Source: a virus
IMG/VR virus record: IMGVR_UViG_3300024264_000006
Span: 1-64,000 of that record
Length of the DNA: 64,000 bases
Direction: 5' to 3' (one strand)
Shown: in pieces, positions 388-61,802 of the stretch
Position numbering within the stretch: position 1 is the first letter of the stretch
How the letters are laid out: every line of letters starts with the position of its first letter
The notes under the pieces: model-generated
The model's input: only the letters and a program-made list of their open reading frames with translations
Databases searched by the model: none
What the model was told of the DNA's origin: nothing
Made by a program: the position numbers and the translations under genes

Positions 388-747
388 TTACCTTGTTACT
401 GAAGGTGATACTTTAATTTTTCCTTCCAAAACCCTTTCTATGATAGTATTACTATCTGAGTCTTGAAATTGGATTTCAACGTCATAAACGTATCTACCAC
501 GAGTATTCAATGTATCGGTTTGGGTGTTTGTTAGAGACATAGTAATTACCCCGTCTGTAGCCGGATCACCAACAATCGTAGTAAAATCTACGACATCGCT
601 GTCCGCAGTCGAGTTATAATTTCTTTTCATTTTGGCGTAACAGGTATATCCGGTCAAGTCTTTCTTAGACCCATCGGTTTCCACCAGTTCCAATTCAATT
701 GAAACGTCTGCGCCTTGATCGATGATGATTTCTTCGTATGTCGCCAT
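388..747 (-). CDS. Beta-rich virion protein, BppU/Ig-like fold candidate
   Basis: Protein of 119 residues. The early part reads as an alternating beta sandwich: an opening IIIDQGADVSIELEL strand, then DLTGYTCYAKMKRN, then GVITMSLTNTQTDTL and RYVYDVEIQFQD. This order resembles the N-terminal domain of baseplate upper proteins (BppU-type) and Ig-like phage proteins, in which a polarised input is followed by a permitted-range test on strands. It is preceded 35 bases upstream by a T4-type late promoter, so it is a late, presumably virion-associated product. Its neighbours are a small fibre protein and a dioxygenase-like gene. The fold assignment is a visual similarity only. Confidence 0.7.
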   Translation of the reverse strand: MATYEEIIIDQGADVSIELELVETDGSKKDLTGYTCYAKMKRNYNSTADSDVVDFTTIVGDPATDGVITMSLTNTQTDTLNTRGRYVYDVEIQFQDSDSNTIIERVLEGKIKVSPSVTR

Positions 748-811: not shown

Positions 812-1519
812 CTATTCTCCCGCAATTTCAGCGATTACTTCGTCCTGTAAATTGAGAGACATATCATTATGATTGAATATGAAGGATACTGTAATACGAT
901 TACAGTCTGTGGAGGCTGCGTGATAACATACCTTATCCGGTTCTTCGTGAAGACCAAAGTAACCAGCCTTTAACTGCCAGCCGGGTTCGTCTTGCATAGT
1001 TACGATCTTTTTGGTCTTCGGGTCTAGATACTTGAACCAACCATCTCCGGTCTCTGACCAAGAGAATATTAGATTATAGCCGGGAGCGTTCCAATTGGTA
1101 TGCCATGAGATGAATCCGCCTGGCGGATAAAAGGCACACAATGCGTTATTTCTTGTTCCTAAAAAGAGTTGAATCTCACTATTGATTTTATAGATAGAAT
1201 CAGTAATAATCTTTCTAGTGTTGTGGTCAGAACGAGATTTAAAACTTTTACCCATTTCTTTCGGGTCAGAAGGTTTAAAGTTTCTTGCCAAAAAGTGATC
1301 TGGGAACCCTTCGTGTCTATCCCCTTCTATTTGAATTAGATGTTTTAGGTATTCCTCACCGACCCACTTATCTCTTTGTGAAGCCTCTTTGTTTTGGTCT
1401 TCACATTGTAAGTGTGTGCTATCCTCAAAACCATCGATATTAGATATCTCAATATACTTGTTAAGAAGTTCAAGTATTTCTTCATTCTTTACGGGGACTT
1501 TTCTAATCATCTCTGTCAT
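812..1519 (-). CDS. 2OG-Fe(II) oxygenase-like double-stranded beta-helix protein
   Basis: Protein of 235 residues. The C-terminal half has the outline of a 2-oxoglutarate/Fe(II) dioxygenase: YPPGGFISWHTN at residues 131-142 gives the first metal histidine (H140), CYHAAS gives the second (H200), and R208 sits where the 2-oxoglutarate-binding arginine is expected. The acidic ligand of the usual HxD motif is Asn142 here, so the metal site is non-canonical and activity is uncertain. The start overlaps the stop of the upstream glycosyltransferase gene (ATGA), so the two are translationally coupled. Their place beside the tail-fibre genes suggests that they modify a virion protein or a sugar on it; that is inference. 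Confidence 0.75.
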   Translation of the reverse strand: MTEMIRKVPVKNEEILELLNKYIEISNIDGFEDSTHLQCEDQNKEASQRDKWVGEEYLKHLIQIEGDRHEGFPDHFLARNFKPSDPKEMGKSFKSRSDHNTRKIITDSIYKINSEIQLFLGTRNNALCAFYPPGGFISWHTNWNAPGYNLIFSWSETGDGWFKYLDPKTKKIVTMQDEPGWQLKAGYFGLHEEPDKVCYHAASTDCNRITVSFIFNHNDMSLNLQDEVIAEIAGE

Positions 1520-2250
1520 ATAATATACCCGTCTTTATCAAGACCGCATGAATAGTGTCTAAGAACAATACCACCTTCTGGATAGGGAGTTCTAGCAGGA
1601 TTCAATGCGTTGTAATAGTTCCACCTAAGATCATTATCAAAGATACCAACTTTTAGTTCTTTATATTTGGGGTCTTTGTTTACCAACCACCATAAGGAAA
1701 ACTGATCCCATGATCGGAGACTCTCAACATATCCTACTGGCCACCATTCACGATCCATTTGTTTGCGTGTAAGTTCCCACCAATCATTCATGAATTCACG
1801 GACGATGGGTTTACGCATATCATACAGACAAACACCACCGCAGAGATCAAAGATTTGTTTTCCCTCTGGACTATCAAACCTACGTTCCGCATAAACATAT
1901 TCACGGTCATCTGTCAATGCAGTAAACATAACATCATTATCAGCCATCTCATCAAAGACAGTTGAGATATCTTCGTGTTCACATTCCATATCTGCATCGA
2001 TGTAAAAGGTTAGGTCATAAGGAGACTTGGCCATACCCCAAAGCTTTGCACGATAGTGATTGTTACACCAGATTACTTGATCAAAGATATCACGATGAAG
2101 TTCCTCAAACATCCACTCTTCACACACAAGAGTTATCTTGGCATCTTCGTGGTAGTCTAGAATTGATTCGGATAGATTTATCGCATATCTATAAAAGTTG
2201 ATTTTATTAGATGCTACAATTACATACCCTTTACTCGGCTGTAGTGACAT
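1516..2250 (-). CDS. Glycosyltransferase, DxD type (GT-A fold)
   Basis: Protein of 244 residues. The N-terminus is a Rossmann-like strand followed by a region of unknown specificity, and the key motif is FYIDADMECEHED (about residue 82), a DxD-type metal and nucleotide-sugar site of GT-A enzymes. Later segments typical of retaining GT8-like proteins are LCGGVCLYDMRK (acceptor side) and SWDQFSLWWLV. No membrane segment is present, so the enzyme should be cytosolic. It overlaps the upstream coiled-coil gene by 20 bases and the downstream oxygenase-like gene by 4. It could glycosylate a fibre protein or a nucleotide; the substrate cannot be read from the sequence. Confidence 0.8.
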   Translation of the reverse strand: MSLQPSKGYVIVASNKINFYRYAINLSESILDYHEDAKITLVCEEWMFEELHRDIFDQVIWCNNHYRAKLWGMAKSPYDLTFYIDADMECEHEDISTVFDEMADNDVMFTALTDDREYVYAERRFDSPEGKQIFDLCGGVCLYDMRKPIVREFMNDWWELTRKQMDREWWPVGYVESLRSWDQFSLWWLVNKDPKYKELKVGIFDNDLRWNYYNALNPARTPYPEGGIVLRHYSCGLDKDGYII

Positions 2251-2701
2251 CCTCTTCTCTCTTCTTAAGTTCTTCCATTACGATCATGATTGCATACAAG
2301 TCAACTTCGACACGATTTTTTGCACGGCGAAGTTTAGACTTGAGTTGACGATTCTTAGAGTTCTTGATATCATCAATCTCAAATGCTTCTAACTTATAGT
2401 TGAAGAGTCTTTCTAGTTTACGAGCTTTTGCGTGTTCTAGTTCACGTTGTTTGTTTTCTTCGCTTTCCCGTTTACTTCGGGCATTCCGTTCTTCGGTGTT
2501 TGCGGTAATTAATTCATCACCAAGGGCTTCCACAACTTCTTCGTAGTCGGGATTGGGATTACCTTCTGCATCAACTTTACGAAGCTTCATAACTTGACGG
2601 GTAACTCGACCCACATCATCTTCAATCTCCAAAATACAGTTGAGCATTTCTTTCTCATCTGTTTCCCAGAATGCATTATCCATCCATTTTCTTGAACTCA
2701 T
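2231..2701 (-). CDS. Coiled-coil protein of unknown function
   Basis: Protein of 156 residues, highly charged. Residues about 75-150 are a long Glu/Lys/Arg-rich helix predicted by eye to form a coiled coil, and the N-terminal part contains ETDEKEMLNCILEIEDD. I recognise no family. It is the first gene after a probable early-type promoter (2750-2778) and overlaps the glycosyltransferase gene downstream by 20 bases, so it may be transcribed early and lead the short run through the oxygenase-like gene. Confidence 0.7.
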   Translation of the reverse strand: MSSRKWMDNAFWETDEKEMLNCILEIEDDVGRVTRQVMKLRKVDAEGNPNPDYEEVVEALGDELITANTEERNARSKRESEENKQRELEHAKARKLERLFNYKLEAFEIDDIKNSKNRQLKSKLRRAKNRVEVDLYAIMIVMEELKKREEDVTTAE

Positions 2702-2749: not shown

Positions 2750-2778
2750 ATGATACATTATAATAGATCAGTTGTCAA
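2750..2778 (-). promoter_or_regulatory. Sigma70-type early promoter, TTGACA-N17-TATCAT
   Basis: On the minus strand GCTTGACA carries the -35 hexamer at 2773-2778, and TATCAT lies at 2750-2755 with 17 bases between. A TATAAT also occurs closer to the -35 but at only 10 bases spacing. The -35 context GCTTGACA is shared with other promoters of this window (38745, 41206, 44027). The -35 overlaps the stop codon of the giant fibre gene. Confidence 0.6.
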
Positions 2779-5700
2779 GCTGTTCTTACATATAATGTAT
2801 ATGTTTGTATTGTACTCGACCCACTTTGGATTGTTAATCCAATGTAGTTACCTACAAAATCCCTTTGATAGTTACCTATGAAATCACGTGTGTAATTTCC
2901 AGTAAATCCAGTGGAATAGTTTCCTATGTAATCTCCAGCGAAGTCACGAGTACTTGTTCGTGTACTGGTACTTGTGTAAGCCGAAGTTCTAGTCCTACTG
3001 AATGCAGAAGTTCTAGTACGTGTCGATACTCTAGTAGAAGTTCTTGCATACTCACCTAAGAAATCACGTGAGTAGTTACCGACAAAATTTCCAGCAAAGT
3101 CTGTCACTCTATCTCTTGAGTAGTTGCCTATGAAATCACGTGAGTAATTACCTACGAAATTTCCAGCAAAGTTTGTTACTCTGTCTCTTATATATTCACC
3201 TAAGAAGTCACGAGTATAGTTGCCTATGAAGTTACCCAAGTAATCTCCAACAAACGTTCTACTATAGTTGCCTACAAAGTCACGTGCGTAGTTACCAACA
3301 AAGTCCCCTGTGAATGTTTGGAGACTATTTCTTGTGTACTCACCCACAAACGTTCTACTATAGTTACCCACAAAGTCACGAGTACTTGTTCTTGTAGAAG
3401 TTCTTGCGTATGTGGAAACTCTACCACGAGTGTATGTAGAAACACGGGTTCTTGAGTAAGCTGATACACGAGTTCTTGTAGAAGTCCTTGCGTATTCACC
3501 TAAGAAGTTACCAGCATAGTCGCCTGCAAAGTTACGTGCATAATCACCCACATAGTTACCAGCAAAGTCTCTGTTGTAGTTACCAGTGTAGTTACCAACA
3601 AAATCTCCAGCAAAGTTACGTGCGTAGTTTCCGACAAAGTTACCAGCAAAGTCTGTTACTCTATCACGAGTGTAGGCCGAACTTCTAGTACGTGTTGAGG
3701 TTCTTGCGTAGGCAGAAACTCTGTTACGAGTCGAAGTTCTAGTAGAAGTACGAGTAAAGTTACCAGTGTAATTTGTTATTCTAGTTCTTGCGTAGGCAGA
3801 AACTCTGTTACGAGTCGAAGTTCTAGTAGAAGTACGAGTAAAGTCACCAGTGTAATCTGTTATACGAGTACGTGAATAGTTACCTACAAAGTCTCCAGCG
3901 TAGTACAAAGTACGAGTATAGTTACCAGTGTAGTACAAAGTACGAGTATAGTTACCCGTAAAGTTACCAGCATAATATAAAGTTCTTGTGTAGTTACCAG
4001 CGTAGGACAAAGTACGAGTATAGTTACCCGCAAAGTTACCCGTAAAGTTACCCGTAAAGTTACCAGCGTAAGTAACGTTTCTAGAGTAGTTTACCGTTCT
4101 AGAGTAAAATCTGAAATATGGTTCTGGTTCATACCCAGTTCCACCCATGAACCATCTACTATAGATCACGCTTCTTGAATAGTTAACCGCTGCAACTCTA
4201 GAACGTGTTGATGTACGAGTCGAGGTACGAGTCGAGGTACGAGTGTATGTTCCCGTTGCGGTTCTAGTACGAGTGTATGTTCCGGTGCCGGTACTTGTAC
4301 GTGTTGAATCACGAGTGTATGTTCCCGTTGCGGTTCTAGTACGAGTGTATGTTCCGGTGCCGGTACTTGTACGTGTAGAAGTCCTTGTGTAGTTACCCAC
4401 AAAGTCTCCGGTAAAGACTGTCGCATAGTTACCAAGATAGTTACCCGCAAAGTCACCAACGAAGGTTCTGCTATAGTTACCAACGAAGTCTCCGGTAAAG
4501 ACCGTGGTATAGTTACCAAGATAGTTACCCGCAAAGTCACCAACGAAGGTTCTGCTATAGTTACCAACAAAATCCCCCGCAAAGTTTCTACTGTAGTTTC
4601 CTACAAAGTTACCCGCAAAGTTGGTTATCCTGTCACGGGTGAATGTGGAAGTTCTAGTACGTGTAGAAGTTCTAGTATAAGCTGCTGAATATGCACTTGT
4701 ACGAGTTCTAGTAGAAGTACGAGTATATGTAGATGTACGAGTTCTAGTAGAAGTACGGGTTGATGTACGTGCATAATCACCCACATAGTTACCAGCAAAG
4801 TTTCTACTGTAGTTTCCTAAAAAGTTTCTTGAATAGTTACCAGTAAATGTCCTTGCATAGTCACCTACGAAATCACCCGCATAGTTTGATACACGAGTTC
4901 TGTTATAGGTAGAGACCCTGTTACGAGAGTAATTCCCTACAAAGTCACCAACGTAATCTGTGATTCTAGTTCTTGCGTAGGTAGAAGTTCTAGTTCTAGC
5001 ATAAGCGGAAACCCTGTTACGTGTGAAGTTCGTTTCTCTATCACGAGTGTAGGCTGACACTCTTGTTCTGGTATAGTTTCCGACAAAGTTACCAGCAAAG
5101 TCTGTTACTCTATCACGAGTGTAGGCCGAAACTCTAGTTCTACTATAGTTCCCTATAAAGTTACCAGCAAAGTTGGTTACCCTGTCACGGTTATAAGTTG
5201 ATACCCTTGTCCTACTATAGTTACCAACATAATCCCCAGCGTAATTACCAGCAAAGTCTCTGTTGTAATTTCCTATGAAATCTCTGGTGTAATCACCAAC
5301 GTAATCTCCAGCATAGGTTGAGGTTCTGGTACGTGTTGAGGTTCTGGCGAATGTTGATCCACGTGATCTAGTATAACTTGAATTTCTTGATCTTGAATAT
5401 GCGGATGTACGTGTTCTTGCGTAAGCTTGATCCGCAGTATCTTTCTTCGTGTCCGTTGCAGTACCCACAGTTGCCCATGTTCCGGAGTCTGTGGGAGCTC
5501 CTTGTGAAGAGGAACGTAATTGGTAAGAACCGACTTCACCAGCGGTTGTTCTCAATGTTCTTACAAATGACCCAACAGTGTTCACGATGTCTGTATCAGA
5601 CATTTCTTGAATATCACCATCACTACGTAGACCAATTGGTCTCACCGTAGTTGGTGCTGTCATGGCATTTCTTTGATAGATGTTATATGGTACAGTAGTT

Positions 5701-6209
5701 CCGTCCGTCTGAGTGTCACTGAAGACCCCAGAAATATGAGTTGTATAATCTGCGCCGGGAGAAGAAGCCCCTAATTTGTATAAGCCAGGATATTCGGATG
5801 TTGCAATACGAGAATTAATTCTACGTGCAAGAATCGTCATGTCAGAGTCAGGCATCTCATAAAGACTTGGTACTGAACTTCCATCTTCCGCATATCCAAC
5901 GGGACGAAGACCTGATCCCTCGCTCGCTGTACCAGCTTTCTGATAAACTGTAGTTGTAGTACTTCCAGAGGTGATTGCAGATGCGGGGTGTGTTCCAACA
6001 GCTTGGTTGTTAAACGTGTCTACAAAAGAACCGATACTCGTACCACCTGTTGAGGTAAGAGTTATATCGGATACTAGATTTGTTCCACCAGCACTGGCAG
6101 CCAAGGCGTCTTTACCGACCACATAGGCAAGGTAGTTTTCATCAGTAGAATTCATCTCCTGAAGATCGCCGTTGGTTCCTTGTAATTTTAGTGGTACATT
6201 CGAAGACAT
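2775..6209 (-). CDS. Giant tail-fibre protein made of tetrapeptide repeats (1144 aa)
   Basis: Residues 1-255 form an N-terminal region related to a virion structural family of marine T4-like phages (PLKLQGTNGDLQEMNSTDENY, then ADYTTHISGVFSDTQTDGT and SYQLRSSSQG). From about residue 262 to 1122 the chain is an almost uninterrupted repeat of four residues: Tyr/Phe-X-Gly-Asn/Asp (for example FVGN, YAGD), Tyr-Ser/Thr-Arg-Thr/Asp/Asn, Ser-Thr-Arg-Thr and Arg-Val-Ser-Ala. A non-repeat insert (around VIYSRWFMGGTGYEPEPYF) interrupts it near residue 690. The C-terminal cap ends in TIQTYTLYVRTA. It is a paralogue of the next gene upstream, sharing N-cap, insert and C-cap. An arginine- and tyrosine-rich surface suggests binding to a charged polymer such as a sulfated glycan; this is inference. 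Length may vary by repeat recombination. Confidence 0.85.
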   Translation of the reverse strand: MSSNVPLKLQGTNGDLQEMNSTDENYLAYVVGKDALAASAGGTNLVSDITLTSTGGTSIGSFVDTFNNQAVGTHPASAITSGSTTTTVYQKAGTASEGSGLRPVGYAEDGSSVPSLYEMPDSDMTILARRINSRIATSEYPGLYKLGASSPGADYTTHISGVFSDTQTDGTTVPYNIYQRNAMTAPTTVRPIGLRSDGDIQEMSDTDIVNTVGSFVRTLRTTAGEVGSYQLRSSSQGAPTDSGTWATVGTATDTKKDTADQAYARTRTSAYSRSRNSSYTRSRGSTFARTSTRTRTSTYAGDYVGDYTRDFIGNYNRDFAGNYAGDYVGNYSRTRVSTYNRDRVTNFAGNFIGNYSRTRVSAYTRDRVTDFAGNFVGNYTRTRVSAYTRDRETNFTRNRVSAYARTRTSTYARTRITDYVGDFVGNYSRNRVSTYNRTRVSNYAGDFVGDYARTFTGNYSRNFLGNYSRNFAGNYVGDYARTSTRTSTRTRTSTYTRTSTRTRTSAYSAAYTRTSTRTRTSTFTRDRITNFAGNFVGNYSRNFAGDFVGNYSRTFVGDFAGNYLGNYTTVFTGDFVGNYSRTFVGDFAGNYLGNYATVFTGDFVGNYTRTSTRTSTGTGTYTRTRTATGTYTRDSTRTSTGTGTYTRTRTATGTYTRTSTRTSTRTSTRSRVAAVNYSRSVIYSRWFMGGTGYEPEPYFRFYSRTVNYSRNVTYAGNFTGNFTGNFAGNYTRTLSYAGNYTRTLYYAGNFTGNYTRTLYYTGNYTRTLYYAGDFVGNYSRTRITDYTGDFTRTSTRTSTRNRVSAYARTRITNYTGNFTRTSTRTSTRNRVSAYARTSTRTRSSAYTRDRVTDFAGNFVGNYARNFAGDFVGNYTGNYNRDFAGNYVGDYARNFAGDYAGNFLGEYARTSTRTRVSAYSRTRVSTYTRGRVSTYARTSTRTSTRDFVGNYSRTFVGEYTRNSLQTFTGDFVGNYARDFVGNYSRTFVGDYLGNFIGNYTRDFLGEYIRDRVTNFAGNFVGNYSRDFIGNYSRDRVTDFAGNFVGNYSRDFLGEYARTSTRVSTRTRTSAFSRTRTSAYTSTSTRTSTRDFAGDYIGNYSTGFTGNYTRDFIGNYQRDFVGNYIGLTIQSGSSTIQTYTLYVRTA
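2844..5423 (-). repeat. Tetrapeptide-coding (12-bp unit) repeat tract, fibre 1
   Basis: About 215 consecutive four-residue units coded by degenerate 12-base units. The aromatic (or Ser/Arg) position recurs every fourth residue. Synonymous codons are mixed, so the DNA is less uniform than the protein, consistent with an old repeat kept by selection on the protein. Confidence 0.9.
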
Positions 6210-6240: not shown

Positions 6241-6248
6241 TATTTATG
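6241..6248 (-). promoter_or_regulatory. T4-type late promoter variant (CATAAATA)
   Basis: CATAAATA on the minus strand, 32 bases before the start of the 1144-residue fibre gene and inside the final codons of its paralogue. It differs from the TATAAATA consensus at the first base. Confidence 0.5.
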
Positions 6249-8700
6249 CATATCGAACATACAAGGTATAAGTTTCTATTACAGATGATCCTGAACCGAT
6301 AGTTGTTCCTGTGTAATTACCCACAAAGTCACGTGAGTAGTTACCTACAAAGTCTCTAGAATAATCCCCAATGAAGTCACCAGCGTAGTTCGATGTACGA
6401 GTTCGGGTAGAATCTCTCGTATAAGCTGAAACTCTTCCTCTTGTATATGCAGATACTCTATTTCTTGAGAAGGTATCTGTTGAATCTCTTGTGTAATCTC
6501 CTATAAAGTCTCTAGAGAAAGAATTTCCGAAATTTCTGCTGGAAGTTCTGGTGGAAGTTCTCTCGTAACTAGAAACTCTTGTACGTTCATAGTTACGAGA
6601 ATATTCTCCAAAAAAGTCTCTTGAATAGTTACCTTCAAAACTTCTAGTGTAATCACGTGCACTTGTACGTGTATAGTTAGAAGCTCTTGTCCTACTATAG
6701 TCACGAGAATATTCACCTAAGAAGTTACCAGCAAAGTCACGAGCACTTGTTCTTGTTGAGGTTCTCGTTGAGGTACGTTCATAGTTGCCTATAAAGTCTC
6801 TAGAATAATCCCCAATGAAGTCACCAGCAAAGTTACGTGCATAATCAGTAATACGAGTACGTGTTGAGGTACGTGCATAATCGCCAGTGAAGTCACCAGT
6901 GAATTCACCAGCAAACCCCACGATACGTTGCCGTGTATATTCCCCAGTATAGGTTCTGTCACCAAGATAGTTTATGTTTCTGTAGTACGTTATGGTTTCG
7001 TATCCGGTGCCGTCTGGGTCTCTGGAGAAACCGTGCGCCCTAGAAAAAGGAATATCGGTCGAAACCCTGTTTCTAATATAATTTCCAAGAAAACTCGGAC
7101 TGTTACTATACTCTCCAGTATAATAGACTGTACGAGTAAAATCTCTAAAGAAAAAGTCTATGGGTATACCATCACCGTCTACTTCAGGTGAACCAAAGGT
7201 GCCCACCGATATAATTGTTGCAGCTCTGTTTCTAGTAAAGGTTGCGGCAATCGATTCTCTAGTCGATTCTCTAGTCGAGTTTCGAGTATATTCACCTAAG
7301 AAGTTACCAGCGTAGTTACCAGCGTAATTACTACTTCTTGTACGTGTTGAGGTTCGTTGATAGTGACGAGTTGAGGTACGAGAATATTCACCTAAGAAGT
7401 TACCAGCGAAGTTACCAGCGTAATTACTACTTCTTGTACGTGTTGAGGTTCTCGTAAAATCTCTGGAATAGTCACCAATGAAGTCTCTAGTATAGTCACC
7501 TGTGAAATTACGTGAAAAACTCCTTGAGTACACTCCTTCATAAGCTCTAGCATAACCGCCTTCGAAATTACGACTGTAGTTTCCTAAGAAATTACGTGTG
7601 TAATCACCTATAAAGTTTCCAGTGTAACTACTACTTCTTGTACGACCATAAGCTGATACTCTAGTTCTGTTATAGTTACCTATAAAGTTTCCAGTGTAAT
7701 TGCCAGCGAATGTACGTTCATAGTTGCCAGTGAATGTACGTTCATAGTTGCCTATGTAATCTCCAGCGAAGTCACGAGTACTTGTTCTTGTTGAGGTTCT
7801 CTGATAGTTACGAGTCGAGGTACGTAGGTAAGCTGACGTTCTAGTCCTAGCGTATGAAGTTTGTACCAAATTCTTTTTAGTGTTTGTTGCAGTACCCACT
7901 GCTCTCCAAGAACCTGTAGCTGGTTGACCTTGAGAACTTGATCGCAATTGATAAGAACCAATCGCATTAGAAGGAGCTCTTCTTGTTTTTGCACGTTGAC
8001 CCAAAGACACTTTCATCTGTCTTGTAGTCATCGGAGTCAAACCTTGGAATGTTCCGGTCTTACCACCACTTCTTTTCACCGACATTAGTTTGGTGACTGC
8101 ACCATCACTATCCAATATACTTGTAGGAGAGGATTGCGTTTCTCTACGATATATGTTATAATCTACCTGAGTTCCATCGGTCTGTGTATCCGAAAAAATA
8201 CCTGAAGAAAATACAGCATAATCTCCGCCTGGCGAAGATGAACCCAACTTAAATTGTCCTAGATAATCAGATAATGCAATTCGAGCATTTAAACGATCCG
8301 CAAATATGTTCATATCCGAATCGGACATTTCATGAACACCTTCTAAAAGGCTTGACGGGCCATCGGTAGGTGGGTTATAATAGGCTATTGGTTTTCTAAA
8401 ATCCGAATCTGCTTCTGACGCCGTACCTAGAATCTGATAAAGGTTTGTAGTAGTAGATGATGAAGATATAGATGAGGCCGGATGAGTACCTACTGATTCA
8501 TTAAAGTAGGTATCAATAAAGGAACCTGTTAAAGTATTGCCACTAGAAGTTAAAGTTAAATTGCCGACATCATTATTTGTCTCAATAAGGTGTTGTCCCA
8601 CCAAATAAGATAGATAATTTTCTTCTGTACTACTTAACCTCTTTAAATCACCCTGATCAGGACTTTGGAGTTTAAGCGGTTTACTCTTCGCAATTGGCAT
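6244..8700 (-). CDS. Second tetrapeptide-repeat tail-fibre protein (818 aa)
   Basis: Paralogue of the 1144-residue fibre. The N-terminal 280 residues match it in order (PLKLQSPDQGDLKRLSSTEE, GIFSDTQTDGTQVDYNIY, SYQLRSSSQGQP), as does the C-terminal cap (TIGSGSSVIETYTLYVRYA). Between them, about residues 283-796, lies the same four-residue repeat, shorter and with more Glu/Asp variants (YERT, FEGN, GEYS). A longer non-repeat insert (about residues 490-590, including PDGTGYETITYYRNINY) occupies the position of the shorter insert in the paralogue. A small gap of 34 bases separates the two genes. The product is probably another part of the adsorption apparatus; two length variants may make two fibres or two segments of one. 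Confidence 0.85.
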   Translation of the reverse strand: MPIAKSKPLKLQSPDQGDLKRLSSTEENYLSYLVGQHLIETNNDVGNLTLTSSGNTLTGSFIDTYFNESVGTHPASSISSSSTTTNLYQILGTASEADSDFRKPIAYYNPPTDGPSSLLEGVHEMSDSDMNIFADRLNARIALSDYLGQFKLGSSSPGGDYAVFSSGIFSDTQTDGTQVDYNIYRRETQSSPTSILDSDGAVTKLMSVKRSGGKTGTFQGLTPMTTRQMKVSLGQRAKTRRAPSNAIGSYQLRSSSQGQPATGSWRAVGTATNTKKNLVQTSYARTRTSAYLRTSTRNYQRTSTRTSTRDFAGDYIGNYERTFTGNYERTFAGNYTGNFIGNYNRTRVSAYGRTRSSSYTGNFIGDYTRNFLGNYSRNFEGGYARAYEGVYSRSFSRNFTGDYTRDFIGDYSRDFTRTSTRTRSSNYAGNFAGNFLGEYSRTSTRHYQRTSTRTRSSNYAGNYAGNFLGEYTRNSTRESTRESIAATFTRNRAATIISVGTFGSPEVDGDGIPIDFFFRDFTRTVYYTGEYSNSPSFLGNYIRNRVSTDIPFSRAHGFSRDPDGTGYETITYYRNINYLGDRTYTGEYTRQRIVGFAGEFTGDFTGDYARTSTRTRITDYARNFAGDFIGDYSRDFIGNYERTSTRTSTRTSARDFAGNFLGEYSRDYSRTRASNYTRTSARDYTRSFEGNYSRDFFGEYSRNYERTRVSSYERTSTRTSSRNFGNSFSRDFIGDYTRDSTDTFSRNRVSAYTRGRVSAYTRDSTRTRTSNYAGDFIGDYSRDFVGNYSRDFVGNYTGTTIGSGSSVIETYTLYVRYA
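6313..7854 (-). repeat. Tetrapeptide-coding repeat tract, fibre 2
   Basis: About 100 repeat units of four residues coded on the minus strand, interrupted by a non-repeat insert near 6930-7225. Same unit types as in the downstream paralogue with extra units such as FEGN and YERT. Confidence 0.85.
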
Positions 8701-8714
8701 TCCACCGTCCTTTT

Positions 8715-11099
8715 TTAAGTATTTAAGAGAGTGCCATTCTCGTCATATATATCCACCACTCTACTTGCCATATGATTTAGCGCATTGACTATACTTGATG
8801 TTGCAGCTGAACTATCAAAGAAAGAAGCCAAATTAGAGAGTGATCCTATTCTAACGTCTAGCGTCCCGGCAGAATCTTGTAAGTCTTGCAAGTCACCCGC
8901 AACGGCATTCAATGCACGTACTACGTTGTCTCTTGAGTTACCTTGATATGTAGTCGCATCTAAACTACCCAATGTTCCGACTGCTGAGTCTAGATCGTTA
9001 ATCGCAGTTCTATTTGATGTAGACGTTGACCAACTATAGGGGTTGTCTACGTTGAATTGTACTGAAACACCAATACGTGCTTCATTAGAATCCATCTCAG
9101 ATTCTAGGGTAGTTACTCTCCCTTTGGTTGTCTGTAGTGAAGATACAGCAGAATCAAGTTCATCATGAACTTCGTTAATTGCACCACCCAAGTGACCGGA
9201 TGTTGTGTTTAGAGATGTACCCTGTATAATGTTTCCAACAAATGTTGCACTTGCAGCTGAATCAAATGTGACGTGATCCGCACTTCTGTTGCGAATTACT
9301 AGGTCACCACCACTGTTCTTAAGGGCACCATAAGTTGTACCACCGTCTTTCAGATATACAAAACCGCCATCTGCATCAAGACTAATGTTACCAGATACGT
9401 CAAGGGTCAGTGCACCAGTTCTGTTAATGGTTGTACCACCCATCGTGACGTTGCCACCTGTGGTTACTGTACCACCTGTGGTGACGTTCGCACCTGAGAA
9501 TGTCAGTGCAGTAGTCGTACCAGACTTAACGATCAGATTACCGGATGTATTGGTAAGAGAACCGTATGTGGTTCCCCCATCCTTAACGAACACGTCACCG
9601 CCGTCTGCATCAAGGACAATATCCCCAGCCGCATCTACCGTGTAAGTAGAAGGAGCGTCAATCTCATAACTTGCATCGTTACTAAGAGTGTGAGTTACCT
9701 CATCACTACCTGCTCCGTTCCTAAATCTAATTTGATTACCATCTGCATCCAATGTAATGTCACCAGACACATCAACTACAAAATCACCTGTACGTGAGAC
9801 TGTTCCATCTGTTTGGAAATGATAATCGGTAGTTCCACCGTCTTTAAAATATATGCCTCCACCGTCTGCATCTAGTGTAATATCTCCACTTACGTCAACA
9901 ATGAAGTCGCCGGTTCTGGAGATTGTGCCGTTGGTGTTGAATCTGTAGTCTTCTGTCCCACCATCCTGAATGATGACGTTACCACCATCCGCATCCAGTA
10001 TAATATTTGAACCAGCATCTACTTTAAAGTTTCTTACAGTGTTTACTGTGGCCGAATCAGCGTTTAATGTGTAGTCACTATCTACTGTGACTGTCTGGTT
10101 ACCATTGATATTTTCAATGTGGTTTCCACCAACTGAGTCGGTGAGGTTACCAGAGTGTTGAATTGTTGTTGTAGTGCCAAGACTGTACGTTACTCTTGTT
10201 GAACCAGCATCTTTAAAGGTGATGTTATCACCGGCTGCGTCGAGTACTATATCACCAGAAATGTCTAGTGTCAAGTTTCCTGTGCGAGAAATTGTACCGT
10301 TTGTTGCAAAGTTATAGTCAGTAGTGCCACCATCTTTGAATGTGACGTTACCGCCAGCTGCGTCGAGAATAATATCTCCGCCTGCGTCCACGGTGTAAGT
10401 AGAAGGTGCATCGATTTCGTATGTGGCATTGTCGTTAAGTGTGTGTGTTACCTCGTCACTGCCCGCACCGTTCCTAAATCTGATTTGGTTACCGTCTGCG
10501 TCAAGAGTAATATCACCCCCCGCATCGATCTCAAAATTACCACCAGCAGAATCACCAGTTACAATCTGACCCGCAACGGTCATGTCAAGAATAGTTGTTG
10601 TTCCTAAAGTAAGTTTTGCGTATTGGTCAGAGTCCTTTTTAAAGGTAACATCACCACCGTCTACGTTAATCTCAAGGTCAGCACCACCGTCAAATACGAA
10701 GTTAGGTGCACTGTTGATCTTCTTTGTGGATGCGTCGAATACTGCTTCAATCTCATTGATAGCATTCTTGATTGTATTCGCTTCAACATTCAGTGTGTCA
10801 GAGTCACCACCGATATATGCGTCGATAGCATTGATGGCTCCTGTAAGACCACTGTCCCGTACTGTGTTGATTGCATAGGAAAGGTAGTTAAGATCACTCT
10901 TAACATCACCACCGCCTGCACCGTGTAGGTCTGAGTCTAATTCGTTTAATGCACTTACTACGTCAGATGAGTCTGATCTTTGAGACGCACGTGTTGTTGT
11001 GGTCAATAAATCAGGGTCGCCTACGTTATTAGAGATAGTATTAACATTATCTCTGAAGATTTTAAACGAATCTGTTAAAGCTGTAATTGGACGTGCCAT
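8715..11099 (-). CDS. Tail fibre with repeated beta-solenoid motifs (794 aa)
   Basis: The N-terminus (MARPITALTDSFKIFRDNVN) and the following Ser/Asp-rich segments (DVVSALNELDSDLHG, GAINAIDAYIGG, TIKNAINEIEAVFD) form a helical, coiled-coil-prone attachment region. Residues about 130-600 are a repeat of roughly 35-50 residues whose core is GDITLDADGG-x-V-x-FKDGGTT followed by TNGTISRTGD and VDVSGD; at least seven copies can be seen. This is the pattern of a beta-solenoid or trimeric beta-helical shaft. The C-terminal 170 residues return to helical DSAV...L repeats. The gene follows a T4-type late promoter inside the small gene upstream. It is likely a fibre or whisker-like structural protein; receptor unknown. 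Confidence 0.85.
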   Translation of the reverse strand: MARPITALTDSFKIFRDNVNTISNNVGDPDLLTTTTRASQRSDSSDVVSALNELDSDLHGAGGGDVKSDLNYLSYAINTVRDSGLTGAINAIDAYIGGDSDTLNVEANTIKNAINEIEAVFDASTKKINSAPNFVFDGGADLEINVDGGDVTFKKDSDQYAKLTLGTTTILDMTVAGQIVTGDSAGGNFEIDAGGDITLDADGNQIRFRNGAGSDEVTHTLNDNATYEIDAPSTYTVDAGGDIILDAAGGNVTFKDGGTTDYNFATNGTISRTGNLTLDISGDIVLDAAGDNITFKDAGSTRVTYSLGTTTTIQHSGNLTDSVGGNHIENINGNQTVTVDSDYTLNADSATVNTVRNFKVDAGSNIILDADGGNVIIQDGGTEDYRFNTNGTISRTGDFIVDVSGDITLDADGGGIYFKDGGTTDYHFQTDGTVSRTGDFVVDVSGDITLDADGNQIRFRNGAGSDEVTHTLSNDASYEIDAPSTYTVDAAGDIVLDADGGDVFVKDGGTTYGSLTNTSGNLIVKSGTTTALTFSGANVTTGGTVTTGGNVTMGGTTINRTGALTLDVSGNISLDADGGFVYLKDGGTTYGALKNSGGDLVIRNRSADHVTFDSAASATFVGNIIQGTSLNTTSGHLGGAINEVHDELDSAVSSLQTTKGRVTTLESEMDSNEARIGVSVQFNVDNPYSWSTSTSNRTAINDLDSAVGTLGSLDATTYQGNSRDNVVRALNAVAGDLQDLQDSAGTLDVRIGSLSNLASFFDSSAATSSIVNALNHMASRVVDIYDENGTLLNT

Positions 11100-11330
11100 T
11101 TATAATTTCTCTACTATTTGCGAAAGTAACCCTTTAATATCTGACATCTCTTTCTTAAGAGTATCTACTTCTTTTTCTAGAGATTCTTTCCTTTTCTGTT
11201 CTTCTTTCCAGAGACGTTTTCGTTCACGTGCTGCCTGAATCTCATCTTTATTTATATTGATAACAGGCCCATACTCTCCCGCACGTGCGAAATCATTTGA
11301 GCCTTCTAATGCTATATACTTCTTCTCCAT
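11100..11330 (-). CDS. Small coiled-coil protein (76 aa) between fibre and baseplate genes
   Basis: Seventy-six residues: a short N-terminal segment ending NINKDEIQAA, then a charged helix EKEVDTLKKEMSDIKGLLSQ with heptad-like leucines that should form a coiled coil. Its start overlaps the stop of the 1910-residue gene as TAATG, indicating translational coupling. A trimerising or connector role for the fibres is possible by position, but no family is recognised. Confidence 0.75.
   Translation of the reverse strand: MEKKYIALEGSNDFARAGEYGPVININKDEIQAARERKRLWKEEQKRKESLEKEVDTLKKEMSDIKGLLSQIVEKL
11249..11256 (-). promoter_or_regulatory. T4-type late promoter
   Basis: Exact TATAAATA on the minus strand within the 76-residue gene, about 150 bases before the beta-solenoid fibre start. 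The distance is longer than for the other late promoters, so function here is less certain. Confidence 0.45.
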
Positions 11331-14300
11331 TAGATCGCCAATGCAATTGCTCTAAGGTCACGAATAATCGGAACCTTAGCACTGTTAGTTGACTCCATGA
11401 CGATCTTCAACTTAAATTTACGGAAGTCTGCAAGATCAGCACCATTCAAGTTGTTGATATCACCAAATCCACCAATAGTATATCGATATTCACGGAACTT
11501 ACTTGGGTTCGTGTCGGAAGGTAATACATTGTCCGAAGTTGCTAACACCCAAGCTTTAGCTTTAAGTCTATCTTCAGCTTCACCAGTCTTGTAGTAAACT
11601 TTAAAGTCGGCTTCGGGTGGTTTGTTTGCAGCAAGTATTACCTTGATGCCTTTTGCAGTCTCTTCCAATACCACTTCTTGTGTTATGTGTTTTGCCAAAC
11701 TAGAACCCGCAATTGTAGTTTCGGGGAAGTAAGTCAATGGCACATTGTATCCATCTGTAGATGCAGAATCCTGTTTATCGATCATGTTACCAATCATTGC
11801 CATACCGGCAGCCTGCATATCAATAACAGGAGATACTTTACTATCAGTTGTTGTCATAGACATCTGAATGATTGCAGATTTAGGATGACTGTAAGTCGCC
11901 AGTTCCGTTGACTCTTCATTCGGATTAATAATACATTTTGGGCCATTAAAGTAATTGTTCTTTTTATTCTGAATCAATGTGAACACATTGTCTTGTATGA
12001 ATCTACCAGATGAACTATCTACCAACGAAGAGTTCGAAGTGAACTTCGCTGACATGGTGATATTCGTAGTAGGCACTTTCATGGTCTGAACCGTAGGCCA
12101 AACCAAATCGAATGTTGGGTTCATACTACCACTACACTTACCACCACCGAATCTTCCTGCTTTGTCAAAGGCAGAATCCGCAAGGAATTGATACGCTGTA
12201 CCATCTACGGAAGTAACCTGTCGATTACCCGTGATACTTGATCCAAGAACACCGTTGTATCTTGTGGCAGCACCAAGACCAGCAATAGTTGTGATATCAC
12301 CTTGACGTAAACCATGACCTCTATTAATAACAGTTACAGTCTTAGCTTTGTTACCACCAGCATCAATGTAATCTTGAGGTACTGCAAATGGATTCTTGGT
12401 CAATACCGTAGGATCAACATTTACATTTTCCAGTAAAGCATTACCAGAAGTATTAAAGTCACATCTGAATAATTGATATGCCAAATCTTCTGTCTGAGAA
12501 GGTTCCCATAACAGAGAGTTTTGAGATTTAAACAATGACCCCAAAGTTGGTTGTTCAGCGATACGTTTCTCTGTAGAACCAAGTACAAAGTCTTCAACAC
12601 GAGAAATGTACGTTCTGTACTTCATAGACTGTGACTGTAGAACAATAGCATACTCGTGTGAATGGGCCAAGTAGATTGGTTCATCAAACTCAAAGTCTGT
12701 ACCATTGGCCAACATCTCTTCGATTGTAGGATCACTGTATGTATCCTCAATGGCAGTTACTTGCGCTTGTTGAACAATCGTTACTCCGCCTGGAACAATA
12801 CCTGTTGAATGAGGTACACCATTTACCGTAGGTCTAATCTGACACATTACAGGAAGACCTGTATCATCCTTACTCGCAAAGAACACACGTACTTTTTTAA
12901 CGAATACACCATTCGGATCATCTAAACCAACTTGGAAAGTTTGTGCAAGTGGGTCAGAATATACACCAATCGTAGTAGTGATTGTCTGAGAATCAACAAC
13001 CTCAGAGTTTGTTTCTGTTCCAACAACAGTTTCAGTTGAGGTAGTTTCCGTCTGAACGTCTGTAGCAGTTTCTTCAGTGACGGCCACATCTGTACTTGTT
13101 GTAAATGTACTTCTAGTATCTGTATCCTCTCTTGTCGATGCACTACCACTAACTTCTAAGATACGTGTACTGTGTACAATATCTTGCACAGGTTCAATGA
13201 AACCCGTTGAAGTGAATTGTGTAGTAGCAAATGACAAGGCCTCATCTTTATTCGGAACACTGATATCACACAGTAAAAACTCTCTTTGACCTGTCGGGAA
13301 ACGCATTGCTGAGTTGTTTGGTATTTCAAACTCACCCAGAATATTTCCGCTTGTATCAGAAATAAGATTTGCGTTTGCAGGCGTCTGTTCACTGTGTGTT
13401 ACAGCTGGTGTGAGACCAGCCGTTCTTGTCTCTGGGTCTCTATCCGAATGTCTTTTAAACACTCCTGTAGAAATACAGTAAGCACTAACATCAGTATTAG
13501 AAAAGAATGGGAAGTATCTTGTAGATGGACGAAGACCATCAGCTTTGAATGATACTTTTCTAGAACGCATCCAAGGGATGGAAATCAAATCGAATACACG
13601 TTGACCCACAATTTCACGCACAGTGTGTTCACCCGAAATTCTATTAACCGTTGTGGTTGTAGAAGTATTCGTTGTGATCTGTGTTTCTGTTTGGAACTCA
13701 GTCTCGGTTGTAGTAGTTGTAGTTTGAGCTAAAGTTGTAGTATCAATAGTCTCAGTAGTTTCACGTGTTTCTGTGGTTGTGGTCTGAATTGTATCTATTG
13801 TACCCACAGTAATAGTAGCACCACCACGGCGGCCTCCACGCATACCACCCGTCATTGGATTCTCATCTGCCCAAACGTCAGCAATAAGACCAAGTTGATC
13901 AGGGTCGGTAATTGTTACGCCACCAAAGGTACTCGTGAATTCTTCATGAGTTTCTTGAGAGACGATATCTGTCTGTGTACCCAAAGATGTTGTATCTGAG
14001 GTTGTACCTGTTACAGTCCAATCTGTTTGGTCTACGGTTGTAGTTTGTCCAGTGATCGAAGGTTCAAGAGTGTTACTTGTTTGAGATGTAGATGTACCAG
14101 TTACTTGACCTTGTGAAGCACCAACTTCTAAGTCATCAAGAGATACACCACCCCAATCCCACTCATGGTTGTTCCAGTTGACAGCATTAGATGTGTCAAG
14201 AACTGTTGGTTGGTCGATAATTTCTGGGGCTCTAACATCGGTCTCTTTCCAGTAATCGGAAGCAGGAGACATAGTAACATAACCCACAATCTTTTCAATG

Positions 14301-17062
14301 AAGAATGGGTTTAGGTTTTCTGTTCTAGAAGCAGTATTCTGTTGTTGATAAGGAACCACTGTATAGTCTAGGGTAATTAAATCCCCCGACTTTTTAACAT
14401 TCAGTTGACCCGCATTTGCAGAATCAAATCTAAGGTCGATTGCTGTTTCTTTCTTGCCCGGTCTTAATATTTTCTTCTGGGGATCAATCGTCGCACGATA
14501 TTCAACGCTTCTAATATCTGAGAAAGCATGGTTTGCAAAGTTGTCCACAAAGAAACCGGACTTAGTTCTATCTGCACCCGCAGAGTCCAAAGCTTTCAGT
14601 GATTGTGTTTTTAGTTCCAACATAGACAGAGTGGCCATTTCTTCCACTTTGTCAAGTTTGGTTTCGATCTTGTTGATGTCCGCCATCGTATATCCTTTCA
14701 AAGGAAGGAGACGAGCTTTCATATCTTTTGTATGAAGAGTAAACGGATTCAATTCATATTTGTACAGATCAATACAGTCTGTAGGTGTGTCGGGAAATGT
14801 AGGTGTAATTGATGCAGTACCTTGTAAGTATCTCAACTCACCCAAATTTGACAACACAAGTTTGTCTTTACGAGGCAGATAGAATTCTGCATCCATCTCA
14901 ACCGTGTCTGTAGGTTGAGGGAGTTCGTTTACAACAGTAAAGGAACCCGAACCGTTAGTAGCGGGACGGAAGTCCAACACGTCACGGAGAGATACCAAAC
15001 GTCCATTCTCCATTTTGTGTGCTGGGACATCTACGTAGTCAACCTGTCCTGTATAGGAATTGATTGCAAAGAAGTCGCCTGTACCATGTGAGAAGTACTT
15101 GAATCTAGCGAAGATCGTTGTACCATTACCACCAGCGGAGTCTGTGCTTGGTTGGCCAACACCTTTCCAGATAAGTTTACCATCATCATAGTGAGTATCA
15201 CGATGGCCTGTATCCAGTTTAAAATCTGTGAATATGTTATTTCCATCGGAGTCGTTGATTCGGACTCTGTTCAGAGAGAAAATGTCTGACTTACCAAGAG
15301 CAAGATACTTAACACCGTCACCATCTGAATCTAGTCTACCACTAACTGTGGCTTCTGTCAAGGTTTTAGGTCTAATTTTTGCAAGACCTTTTTTGACATA
15401 TGCGAGAATTTCTACCGCAGTACTGGCGGGTAGACCGGAAAGAGTGGCAGAAGTTGCGCCACCTGTTAAACTTGTTGTCACTGAACCTAAGAAACCATCG
15501 GCTGCAGATGCAAAAATCCAATCGCCTGTATTCTCAAAGGTTTCACCTGAAGTTGTTAGTGTGATAGTAAGTTCACCACCAGATGTCGCAGTCCCACTAA
15601 ACCTTCGTTGCGAGGACAATGAAACACTACTAAAATTCTTAGGTCTAGGAATAGGAGAATCAAATAATAGAGTTTTCTTCTTAGTCTCACGCAGTGTTGT
15701 ATTATTACTAAAATCGATGTTATAGTAATTCGATGTACTTGTACCTACGGAACGTACATTTCTCAAACTGTATGAGTTATTAGTAATCGTCACATCGAAC
15801 ACATGAAGTCGATATTGATTGTTCTGGAATTCTGAGATAGCACGAACCCTACATGTACCAATAGAGTTTTGTCCACCAGCAGTTCTGTACAGTTGTACTT
15901 CTTCACAATCATCAAAATTCAACATTCCCTTAGCGCCCAATGTATCGGATACTAGGAAATAGTTTCCGTAGTCGGCAAGAATACCTTGATTGTCAATTGT
16001 GGTTGTTTCTTGTGCACGCTTTACAACAATAGGTGTTGTTGAGGTTTTTTCGATTCGGAAACCGTCGATGTAAGCAAGGCCAGGATCAACTTCCAATTTA
16101 AAAGTCGTATCGTTATTAGGTAAGAATCTTGTCTTGAAATATTTTTTAATGAAGTTACCATGAATCTCACGGATACGTGTTGCTACGTGGTTACCGATTT
16201 CATTATATCCTTCAGAAGATAGTACCTTGTTGACTTCTTTTCCATCCACAATCTTAGAGTATGGGACATGGTTCTCATCCGAGTCTAGGTCTTCCAACTT
16301 AGATAGTGTTAGACGAATTCTGTATCTGTCTGCGCCAGGCGATGATCTGTTAGGTGTCGCCCCTTGGTTATCAAAGAGAGCATCGTCATCGGAAGAAGTA
16401 ACAATATCTTCTGTTACTTTGAAAACAATCTCACCACTATAGTTCTGATTGTACTTGGAGAGATAGATTGTTTGTGCCGGTGAGAATACAAATCGACCAA
16501 CAGCAAAGAATGAACCTTCACCAGTCTGATATGAAAGTCCTTGTCCTGTGGCAGGGTTAGATGAACTGTTTTCTTGTTGTACATCAAATGTATACGTACT
16601 GCCGTTAATAGTACCCGACAAGGTTTCATTCGCAGTTACACGAAGGGCTGTTTCTCCAGCCTGCGCTTGAGGTGTTTCTAGATAAGTGACGTAAAGTGTT
16701 TCGGGGTCAGTTGCAGTCGCAGCAAGTTTATCATCAACACGGATTTTAATTCCACTAGTCTGACCAACAAAAACATTATCAATAATATCTACGTTTGATG
16801 GTAGTGGGGTACTTACTTTAATTTTAATAAATTCAAGTTTCTTATTGAAAGATGAAGCAGAGTTATTTACGGGCGCACCGTCTTTGAAGACGTTCTGTCC
16901 TAGACGTGTGATCTCTTTCTGAACAATCGTTTGGAGTTGAGTTAACTCACGGGCCTGTAGAGCACGTCCACTGTTAAACAGGATGCGATGATATCCATCA
17001 CTGTCAGCGTGATCGTCCTTGTATGTAGTATTAAATACTTGTTTATTAAAAATCTTTGTCAT
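11330..17062 (-). CDS. Very large virion structural protein, DUF4815-like (1910 aa)
   Basis: The N-terminal 350 residues (NKQVFNTTYKDDHADSDGYH, GRALQARELTQLQTIVQKEI, FKDGAPVN) match the DUF4815 type of phage tail/baseplate proteins that precede long fibres. The middle is beta-rich. Residues about 985-1125 contain Thr/Glu/Gln-rich low-complexity runs (for example TTTLAQTTTTTTETEFQTE), with a second such run near residue 1290 (TATDVQTETTSTETVV). The C-terminal 500 residues are again ordered beta-rich sequence (for example YSDPLAQTFQVGLDDPNGVF). The gene sits 11 bases downstream of gp8, so it belongs to the baseplate periphery, analogous in position to T4 gp10 and gp11; direct homology to those is not claimed. 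Confidence 0.85.
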   Translation of the reverse strand: MTKIFNKQVFNTTYKDDHADSDGYHRILFNSGRALQARELTQLQTIVQKEITRLGQNVFKDGAPVNNSASSFNKKLEFIKIKVSTPLPSNVDIIDNVFVGQTSGIKIRVDDKLAATATDPETLYVTYLETPQAQAGETALRVTANETLSGTINGSTYTFDVQQENSSSNPATGQGLSYQTGEGSFFAVGRFVFSPAQTIYLSKYNQNYSGEIVFKVTEDIVTSSDDDALFDNQGATPNRSSPGADRYRIRLTLSKLEDLDSDENHVPYSKIVDGKEVNKVLSSEGYNEIGNHVATRIREIHGNFIKKYFKTRFLPNNDTTFKLEVDPGLAYIDGFRIEKTSTTPIVVKRAQETTTIDNQGILADYGNYFLVSDTLGAKGMLNFDDCEEVQLYRTAGGQNSIGTCRVRAISEFQNNQYRLHVFDVTITNNSYSLRNVRSVGTSTSNYYNIDFSNNTTLRETKKKTLLFDSPIPRPKNFSSVSLSSQRRFSGTATSGGELTITLTTSGETFENTGDWIFASAADGFLGSVTTSLTGGATSATLSGLPASTAVEILAYVKKGLAKIRPKTLTEATVSGRLDSDGDGVKYLALGKSDIFSLNRVRINDSDGNNIFTDFKLDTGHRDTHYDDGKLIWKGVGQPSTDSAGGNGTTIFARFKYFSHGTGDFFAINSYTGQVDYVDVPAHKMENGRLVSLRDVLDFRPATNGSGSFTVVNELPQPTDTVEMDAEFYLPRKDKLVLSNLGELRYLQGTASITPTFPDTPTDCIDLYKYELNPFTLHTKDMKARLLPLKGYTMADINKIETKLDKVEEMATLSMLELKTQSLKALDSAGADRTKSGFFVDNFANHAFSDIRSVEYRATIDPQKKILRPGKKETAIDLRFDSANAGQLNVKKSGDLITLDYTVVPYQQQNTASRTENLNPFFIEKIVGYVTMSPASDYWKETDVRAPEIIDQPTVLDTSNAVNWNNHEWDWGGVSLDDLEVGASQGQVTGTSTSQTSNTLEPSITGQTTTVDQTDWTVTGTTSDTTSLGTQTDIVSQETHEEFTSTFGGVTITDPDQLGLIADVWADENPMTGGMRGGRRGGATITVGTIDTIQTTTTETRETTETIDTTTLAQTTTTTTETEFQTETQITTNTSTTTTVNRISGEHTVREIVGQRVFDLISIPWMRSRKVSFKADGLRPSTRYFPFFSNTDVSAYCISTGVFKRHSDRDPETRTAGLTPAVTHSEQTPANANLISDTSGNILGEFEIPNNSAMRFPTGQREFLLCDISVPNKDEALSFATTQFTSTGFIEPVQDIVHSTRILEVSGSASTREDTDTRSTFTTSTDVAVTEETATDVQTETTSTETVVGTETNSEVVDSQTITTTIGVYSDPLAQTFQVGLDDPNGVFVKKVRVFFASKDDTGLPVMCQIRPTVNGVPHSTGIVPGGVTIVQQAQVTAIEDTYSDPTIEEMLANGTDFEFDEPIYLAHSHEYAIVLQSQSMKYRTYISRVEDFVLGSTEKRIAEQPTLGSLFKSQNSLLWEPSQTEDLAYQLFRCDFNTSGNALLENVNVDPTVLTKNPFAVPQDYIDAGGNKAKTVTVINRGHGLRQGDITTIAGLGAATRYNGVLGSSITGNRQVTSVDGTAYQFLADSAFDKAGRFGGGKCSGSMNPTFDLVWPTVQTMKVPTTNITMSAKFTSNSSLVDSSSGRFIQDNVFTLIQNKKNNYFNGPKCIINPNEESTELATYSHPKSAIIQMSMTTTDSKVSPVIDMQAAGMAMIGNMIDKQDSASTDGYNVPLTYFPETTIAGSSLAKHITQEVVLEETAKGIKVILAANKPPEADFKVYYKTGEAEDRLKAKAWVLATSDNVLPSDTNPSKFREYRYTIGGFGDINNLNGADLADFRKFKLKIVMESTNSAKVPIIRDLRAIALAI

Positions 17063-46117: not shown

Positions 46118-46145
46118 TGTTGTCCCAGTCTGAGTTATATAAAGT

Positions 46146-46153
46146 TATTTATA
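46146..46153 (-). promoter_or_regulatory. T4-type late promoter
   Basis: Exact TATAAATA on the minus strand, 29 bases before the P-loop kinase, inside the last codons of the 44-residue membrane protein. Confidence 0.7.
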
Positions 46154-46283
46154 TAAAAAGGGCCACCAACCAAGCCAAACCAAATAAAATAACTACGTTT
46201 GGATATACAGTCCATACGGTCTTAATATCATCCCATGTACCCTTAGCGAGTCTGGTTGATTCTCGTTTAAATGAGTTCCACAT
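46149..46283 (-). CDS. Small membrane protein (44 aa)
   Basis: Short ORF with a good ribosome-binding site (GGAGAAA). Sequence begins MWNSFKRESTRLAKGTWDDI and ends with a hydrophobic segment VVILFGLAWLVALFI spanning one membrane. Its start overlaps the stop of the preceding 209-residue gene as TAATG. Single-span small proteins in this position are often lysis or inhibitor proteins, but nothing identifies this one. Confidence 0.65.
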   Translation of the reverse strand: MWNSFKRESTRLAKGTWDDIKTVWTVYPNVVILFGLAWLVALFI

Positions 46284-49617: not shown

Positions 49618-49621
49618 TATG

Positions 49622-50542: not shown

Positions 50543-50552
50543 CTCAATAGCC

Positions 50553-54850: not shown

Positions 54851-54856
54851 AATCTA

Positions 54857-55555: not shown

Positions 55556-55593
55556 AGGGTTCTCCTTTAATTTCACACTCTTAATATAGATAG

Positions 55594-59249: not shown

Positions 59250-59260
59250 ATTTCATCCTG

Positions 59261-61746: not shown

Positions 61747-61768
61747 AATAACTCCCACTTACTAATAT

Positions 61769-61797: not shown

Positions 61798-61802
61798 GCG
61801 TT

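Follow-up and report, generated by a model that had tools for sequence, protein, structure and literature searches.

The question raised by this locus is what a phage protein that consists mostly of four-residue units might be, and what it might be doing for the phage. This matters since the host range of a phage is set by its fibres, most of which, in abundant marine phages, lack annotation. The window, by which is meant the whole 64,000-nucleotide stretch analysed (positions 1 to 64,000 of IMG/VR virus record IMGVR_UViG_3300024264_000006, itself 147,636 bases), carries two such genes in tandem, here termed A and B. A preliminary description had placed at 2844-5423 a fibre of about 215 tetrapeptide units over about 860 residues; the paralogue at 6244-8700 was absent from it. 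Both proteins are very probably virion fibre proteins, forming part of the receptor-recognition apparatus of their phage.

A repeat selected as protein

The two genes are laid out as follows.

2775..6209, (-): fibre gene A, 1144 aa (ORF listing)
5424..6209, (-): A N-domain, residues 1-262, three tandem modules, the third without its terminal strand (AF2 pLDDT about 90; modules homologous by hhalign)
2850..5423, (-): A tetrapeptide repeat, residues 263-1120, about 215 units, with phase shifts (phase/lag analysis)
4035..4202, (-): A irregular insert, about residues 670-725 (in-phase listing and phase profile)
2775..2849, (-): cap at the C terminus of A, ...LTIQSGSSTIQTYTLYVRTA and stop, like the module-2 terminal strand of the N-domain
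6244..8700, (-): fibre gene B, 818 aa, tandem paralogue of A with the same architecture, adjoining A upstream
7855..8700, (-): B N-domain, residues 1-282, 49% identical to that of A
6313..7854, (-): B tetrapeptide repeat, residues 283-796 (in-phase listing and phase profile)
6901..7254, (-): B irregular insert, about residues 483-600, inside the B repeat
6244..6312, (-): cap at the C terminus of B, ...IGSGSSVIETYTLYVRYA and stop

The stretch first described, 2844-5423 (-), corresponds to residues 263-1122 of the 1144-aa ORF at 2775-6209 (-), the plan of which is a 262-residue N-domain, then a tetrapeptide-repeat region of about 860 residues, and then a 24-residue C-terminal cap. Over these 860 residues the period is real, that is, identity reaches 0.252 at lag 4 (z 14; shuffles give 0.107) and 0.323 at lag 8 (z 22), with the odd lags 1, 3, 5 and 7 depleted (identity 0.01-0.02, z about -8 to -9). 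What does not stand is the strictness that had been ascribed to it: The strongest lags are 8 and 24 rather than 4, there are shifts of phase around the irregular insert (about residues 603-680 and 700-775), and the tetrapeptide pattern fits 91% of residues 263-1120. The placing of an aromatic residue at position 1 and of Arg or Gly at position 3, as also had been proposed, is seen in the clean blocks (residues 263-602 and 776-1122), with F/Y at position 1 in about 70% and R/G at position 3 in 74-82%, and with both essentially absent from positions 2 and 4.

Between A and its homologue at locus L001, differences by codon position number 230/140/430, and 280 codons differ synonymously. As synonymous differences dominate between homologues, the repeat is under selection at the level of protein. 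The array, that is, is a selected protein sequence and not a DNA artefact. At L003:6553-10069 a homologue of A (90% identical) is split, inside the repeat, into two ORFs in different frames, reflecting either a sequencing or assembly error or instead a real frameshift.

The grammar of the repeat

Unit statistics were drawn from 13,122 units of non-redundant blocks, and as the selection of these units used the phase itself, their frequencies describe the period and do not test it. Position 1 is Y in 49%, F in 29%, R in 15% and S in 6%; position 3 is G in 42%, R in 38% and S in 12%; position 2 is T/A/V/S/I and position 4 is N/T/D, with Asn/Asp making up 51% of the latter. The core units can therefore be written [FY]-x-G-[ND] or [FY]-x-R-[TND], to which RxSx and STRT variants are added.

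These units do not succeed one another freely. Following an aromatic-x-G unit, units starting with R or S are almost absent (observed/expected 0.02 and 0.01), YxR is rare after YxR (observed/expected 0.15), and Tyr follows '..RT' in just 9 of 1,441 cases, with Phe, Arg or Ser free to occur there. Two residues on from a position-3 Arg, that is, one finds Phe, Arg or Ser and almost never Tyr; a codon effect is unlikely because Tyr and Phe both follow Gly-Asn and Gly-Asp freely. The uniform Tyr/Arg ladder that had been envisaged is partly opposed by this grammar, given that YxR is almost never found before Tyr and that YxR units rarely are consecutive.

Changes in length follow a related tendency. 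Repeat indels between homologues, by length modulo 4, number 256 (0), 111 (1), 187 (2) and 56 (3), so that 443 of 610 are even and lengths divisible by four make up the largest class, figures which, since homologue pairs overlap, express a tendency rather than an independent count. Both single-unit and two-residue indels are common. Superperiods, by contrast with the tetrapeptide phase, the one period that the whole family shares, vary by protein (8, 12, 24, 28, 36, 44 and 60 residues), those strong in single proteins being of 12, 24, 28 and 44 residues. A universal superperiod or coil was considered and rejected: The peaks at 24, 28 and 44 residues, higher than Markov models give, vary by protein and are for that reason attributed to duplication. 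Even indels along with varied superperiods would point to a beta-type strand in which parity is kept and length changes by one unit at a time, rather than to a fixed-coil solenoid, and this favours, at the level of sequence, an extended beta-type stalk.

Of the beta-strand face that the preliminary description proposed, what holds up is the strict i, i+2 alternation, which fits a beta-strand. Its further elaboration as a 'solenoid wall' or 'Tyr/Arg ladder' is not demonstrated, as AF2, run on the A repeat plus cap as a monomer (C-terminal 364 aa), returned a pLDDT of 33 and no confident fold. So low a score can come from intertwined oligomers, from disorder, or from a poor alignment alike.

A family of marine phage fibres

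A protein scan of viral contigs yielded 39 loci with the fibre, and at least 119 viral-contig stretches match a DNA pattern for FxGNYxRxFxGNY. Among complete members the plan of N-domain, then repeat, then cap is near-universal and is kept across distant contigs, the N-domain starting like PLKL..GDLQE....EENYLAY and the cap reading like TTI.S....IETYTLYVR.A. Many loci have two tandem members. Members range from 410 aa (L038) to about 3,340-3,370 aa (C48C1, L026), with repeat regions spanning some 140 to some 3,000 residues. The stalks of giant members contain globular inserts, one such domain being found again in proteins of Vibrio phages that are annotated 'virion structural protein'; FG-GAP, in L026, is the sole Pfam match among these giants.

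Neither A nor B has a match in Pfam, PHROGs, PDB sequences, or BFVD or PDB folds, consistent with the suggestion that no structure of this period has been solved, and the repeat is not described in the literature searched. The phage-database search that had been proposed matched no characterised repeat family and, among 50,697 phage records, found Phage C48C1 only. A match to Enterococcus phage Riverwalk (E 7e-6) falls where no gene is annotated and is put down to chance similarity, while bacterial genome matches to YPGx and YGGx, among 118 stretches listed, are low-complexity only. What we have here is a genuine, apparently undescribed family of tetrapeptide-repeat fibres of marine T4-like phages.

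Various ORFs lie toward the edges of this family. Short ones (178-283 aa; L007:2189-3579 and L009:2794-3552) have YTRT-type units and different ends, and the repeat thus exists as well outside of the N-domain/cap plan. A 1467-aa ORF (L010:3-4436, also L051) has a different N-terminus along with repeat units, and is found upstream of a canonical fibre. Diverged fibres at L421:3-2736 have six-residue FxG[ST]R units (again even), and have kept the family cap and downstream cassette.

N-domain and cap

AF2 gives residues 1-260 of A a pLDDT of about 90, versus below 50 for the repeat. The N-domain modules are related by hhalign (first to second, E 2.7e-6; second to third, E 1.7e-10), with the third diverging prior to its terminal strand. 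Among the 50,697 phage records the N-domain is found in Phage C48C1 only, and it has no structural match in BFVD or PDB folds. That it is likely an anchor is therefore a reading taken from its position.

The cap may supply what the third module lacks. Its best-scoring window is the module-2 terminal strand in 30 of 46 proteins, and with column shuffles of the scoring matrix 1/200 reaches the rank statistic and 0/200 the score, although by hhalign alone the similarity is weak (P 0.014). Being like the module-2 terminal strand, the cap may complete module 3, in which case the stalk would run out and back, i.e., would leave from and return to one place. This is a lead, as drawn from sequence likeness.

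Genomic neighbourhood

Three further genes border the fibres.

388..747, (-): LtfC-like, or L-shaped tail-fibre assembly, protein (phrog_3304 E 1.3e-16; PF23926 under the cut-off at E 1.1e-4)
8715..11099, (-): upstream structural protein with a gp5-like octapeptide tendency (phrog_9992 E 1.7e-8)
11330..17062, (-): VrlC-like DUF4815 protein bordering the host-recognition cluster (PF16075 E 2e-48; phrog_358)

For the 8715-11099 protein, lag 8 is the strongest, and DUF5649 and Gp5_trimer_C score below cut-off. The DUF4815 protein would, from size and position, be VrlC, a gene of its size and place in HTVC008M being so named. In pelagimyophages the genes that come next downstream of VrlC encode, in most genomes, the tail fibres, and the host recognition cluster also holds glycosyltransferases (PMC7029224). 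A and B lie beside baseplate and VrlC genes, i.e., near T4-type baseplate wedge, hub/lysozyme and tail-tube-cap genes; A accordingly sits in a tail-fibre region, as suits the fibre-like protein it was first taken for, and no known fibre protein in Pfam, PHROG, PDB or BFVD was matched by either it or B, in sequence or in fold. The nearest gp6 relatives are from C48C1 (40%) and then from cyanophages and HTVC008M (about 31%), and the source is a marine T4-like myovirus related to Phage C48C1 and pelagimyophages.

Elsewhere in the window, sugar-related and other genes are found at 44346-62654. These include a Nol-like carbamoyltransferase (59590-61149), GT8 (61803-62654), GT25 (49622-50614), a radical SAM/SPASM protein (57376-58353) and a zeta-toxin-like kinase (45242-46117).

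A three-gene downstream cassette

Three uncharacterised genes, a fixed set in place for about 90% of fibres, lie immediately 3' of the last fibre gene, with counts being of distinct fibres that have enough DNA.

2231..2701, (-): 156-aa charged, probably helical protein (50/57 distinct fibres)
1516..2250, (-): 244-aa glycosyltransferase-like protein, invariant DxD in YIDADME (45/48 distinct fibres)
812..1519, (-): 235-aa oxygenase-like protein, invariant HxN...H...R, motif only (37/40 distinct fibres)

In reverse, i.e., starting from the enzyme-like genes, a repeat ORF lies within 3 kb upstream in 63/70 and 71/76 loci. As these loci come from the best 80 of 355 and the best 80 of at least 582 relatives, the reverse figures describe close relatives. 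Among the exceptions inspected, L337, L421 and L444 do carry a family member at that place; L318/L319/L401 and L356 include contigs also giving L063 and L035, fibres which are further off or interrupted; and at L323 and L377 (one contig) no fibre was seen. Each cassette protein matches, among the 50,697 phage records, C48C1 only, which is the sole record with the fibre.

The enzymatic assignments of 1516-2250 and 812-1519 are at the level of motifs only. For the glycosyltransferase-like family D85 and D87, making up the DxD, are invariant; Pfam GT2 matches 18 of 31 members weakly (E 0.0018 at best), with the window member at 14.9 bits versus a cut-off of 23.3, and profile comparison with the two glycosyltransferase-8-like proteins of the window is not significant. 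In the oxygenase-like family HxN, H and R are invariant in 28 members, among which the HxD of the canonical 2OG-Fe(II) pattern, HxD...H...R, is absent, and no Pfam or PDB match to an oxygenase family or structure was found. Taken from linkage, modification of the fibre is probably the work of the two enzyme-like proteins, and the 156-aa protein probably helps the fibre to fold or assemble; genes so linked may, of course, be on one transcript and yet not act on each other. Conservation of the cassette suggests that the fibre has a dedicated means of assembly or chemical modification.

What the fibre may be

The reading that we consider probable is that A and B are receptor-recognition fibres of a T4-like marine myovirus, with an N-domain anchor, a length-variable stalk of a new type of repeat, a cap, and possibly post-translational modification. 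The three-module N-domain would anchor the fibre, with the repeat forming an extended stalk of variable length. Each chain most likely would be a beta-type strand, with the aromatic, Gly and Arg face inward and T/A/V/S and N/D/T outward, and chains would assemble with others, probably as trimers by analogy with other phage fibres. Globular stalk inserts of large members could bind receptors, and the cap would close the fibre. Counting for the fibre reading are the periodicity and parity, the even indels, the grammar, the neighbours, the linkage of the cassette, and the insert shared with Vibrio phages. The repeat, its grammar, the architecture, the location and the co-conservation are observed, and oligomer, strand packing, anchor, receptor binding and modification are inferred.

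Other readings begin from some of this same evidence. The tandem DNA units of 12-84 nt within the arrays, many at 79-98% match, are what a selfish or slippage-generated repeat with little protein-level meaning would leave, an explanation that is exceedingly improbable, contradicted as it already is by mostly synonymous change between homologues and also by the same residues being specified by varied codons and an architecture kept across distant contigs. The abundance of Y, R, G, S, T and N in the repeat, together with pLDDT below 50 throughout the repeat, would suit an intrinsically disordered, condensate-like protein, that is, a sticky, flexible tether in which Tyr/Phe and Arg would be the stickers and Gly/Ser/Asn/Thr the spacers; a disordered sticker chain would nevertheless not be expected to keep strict parity, to forbid certain unit successions or to have indels of even length, and AF2 monomer runs are poor evidence where intertwined fibres are concerned, so we think disorder unlikely. 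We are similarly doubtful of a monomeric beta-solenoid in which every coil would hold the same number of units. Alternation with inward aromatics and the strong superperiods of single proteins would agree with it, but superperiods vary between proteins, the frequent indels of four and two residues would break the register of a coil, and AF2, which reportedly tends to give repeats confident solenoids (PMC11795689), gave none here. A fixed-coil version of the solenoid in the preliminary description is in this way argued against.

A relationship with known fibrous tail proteins might be supposed instead, such that A and B would be triple-stranded beta-helices of the T4 gp5 type, with some octapeptides turned into two tetrapeptides. 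The [FY]xG[ND] unit is reminiscent of gp5, which repeats VxGxxxxx with N/D at one repeat position as a surface ladder (PMC4576200), lag 8 is high in both A and B, and the neighbouring 8715-11099 protein has its octapeptide tendency. The phase common to the family is 4 and not 8, however, an aromatic stands in place of Val, and A and B lack a Pfam match to Gp5_trimer_C, making this reading improbable. Were A and B other surface proteins, i.e., head fibres, whiskers, or proteins displayed on the infected cell, then an N-domain with no known attachment relative among BFVD and PDB folds would be less surprising; their adjoining of baseplate genes, VrlC and the LtfC-like gene makes that quite unlikely. 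The receptor-recognition fibre is the reading retained.

Comparison with known systems

The closest known system is Phage C48C1 (Kyanoviridae; OQ984149), the hypothetical protein WJE88074.1 of which has an N-domain with 47% identity across 92% of the query, along with the same repeat and same downstream cassette. Unlike A and B, that protein is about 3,340 aa, single copy and has several globular inserts; it is unannotated. In being downstream of VrlC and near glycosyltransferases, A and B resemble tail fibres of pelagimyophages and cyanomyophages (PMC7029224). No homologous fibre was found in HTVC008M, which at that place has a different type of fibre-like protein, without lag-4 periodicity. 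Many marine phage fibres that lack annotation could be named from the signatures seen here, i.e., the three-module N-domain, the [FY]xG[ND]/[FY]xR[TND] repeat, the YTLYxR cap and the three-gene cassette.

With the T4 gp5 beta-helix the shared features are a fibrous tail beta repeat and a Gly then Asn/Asp, at the kink, two positions past a large residue (here Gly at 42% of third and Asn/Asp at 51% of fourth positions). They differ in period (8 versus 4, with no octapeptide period common to the present family), in Val versus Phe/Tyr, and in the Arg units and transition rules that gp5 is without, and homology between these repeats was not detected. Pentapeptide-repeat proteins likewise have a short repeat with an aromatic or hydrophobic position facing one side, but their period is 5, in fixed 20-residue coils, versus 4 and no fixed coil. 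The preliminary description correctly had separated the A repeat from these (lag 5 identity 0.022) and from collagen, with its Gly at every third residue (lag 3 identity 0.023).

A regular repeat of tunable length and without a fold match, accompanied by two candidate modifying enzymes, makes for a testable and possibly new fibrous architecture. It is a tentative possibility, going beyond the preferred reading, that the repeat has a fold absent from solved structures, with succession rules of its own, and is hydroxylated and/or glycosylated by the co-encoded enzyme pair. If so, then the stalk of a phage fibre would be a modified repeat polymer, as collagen is.
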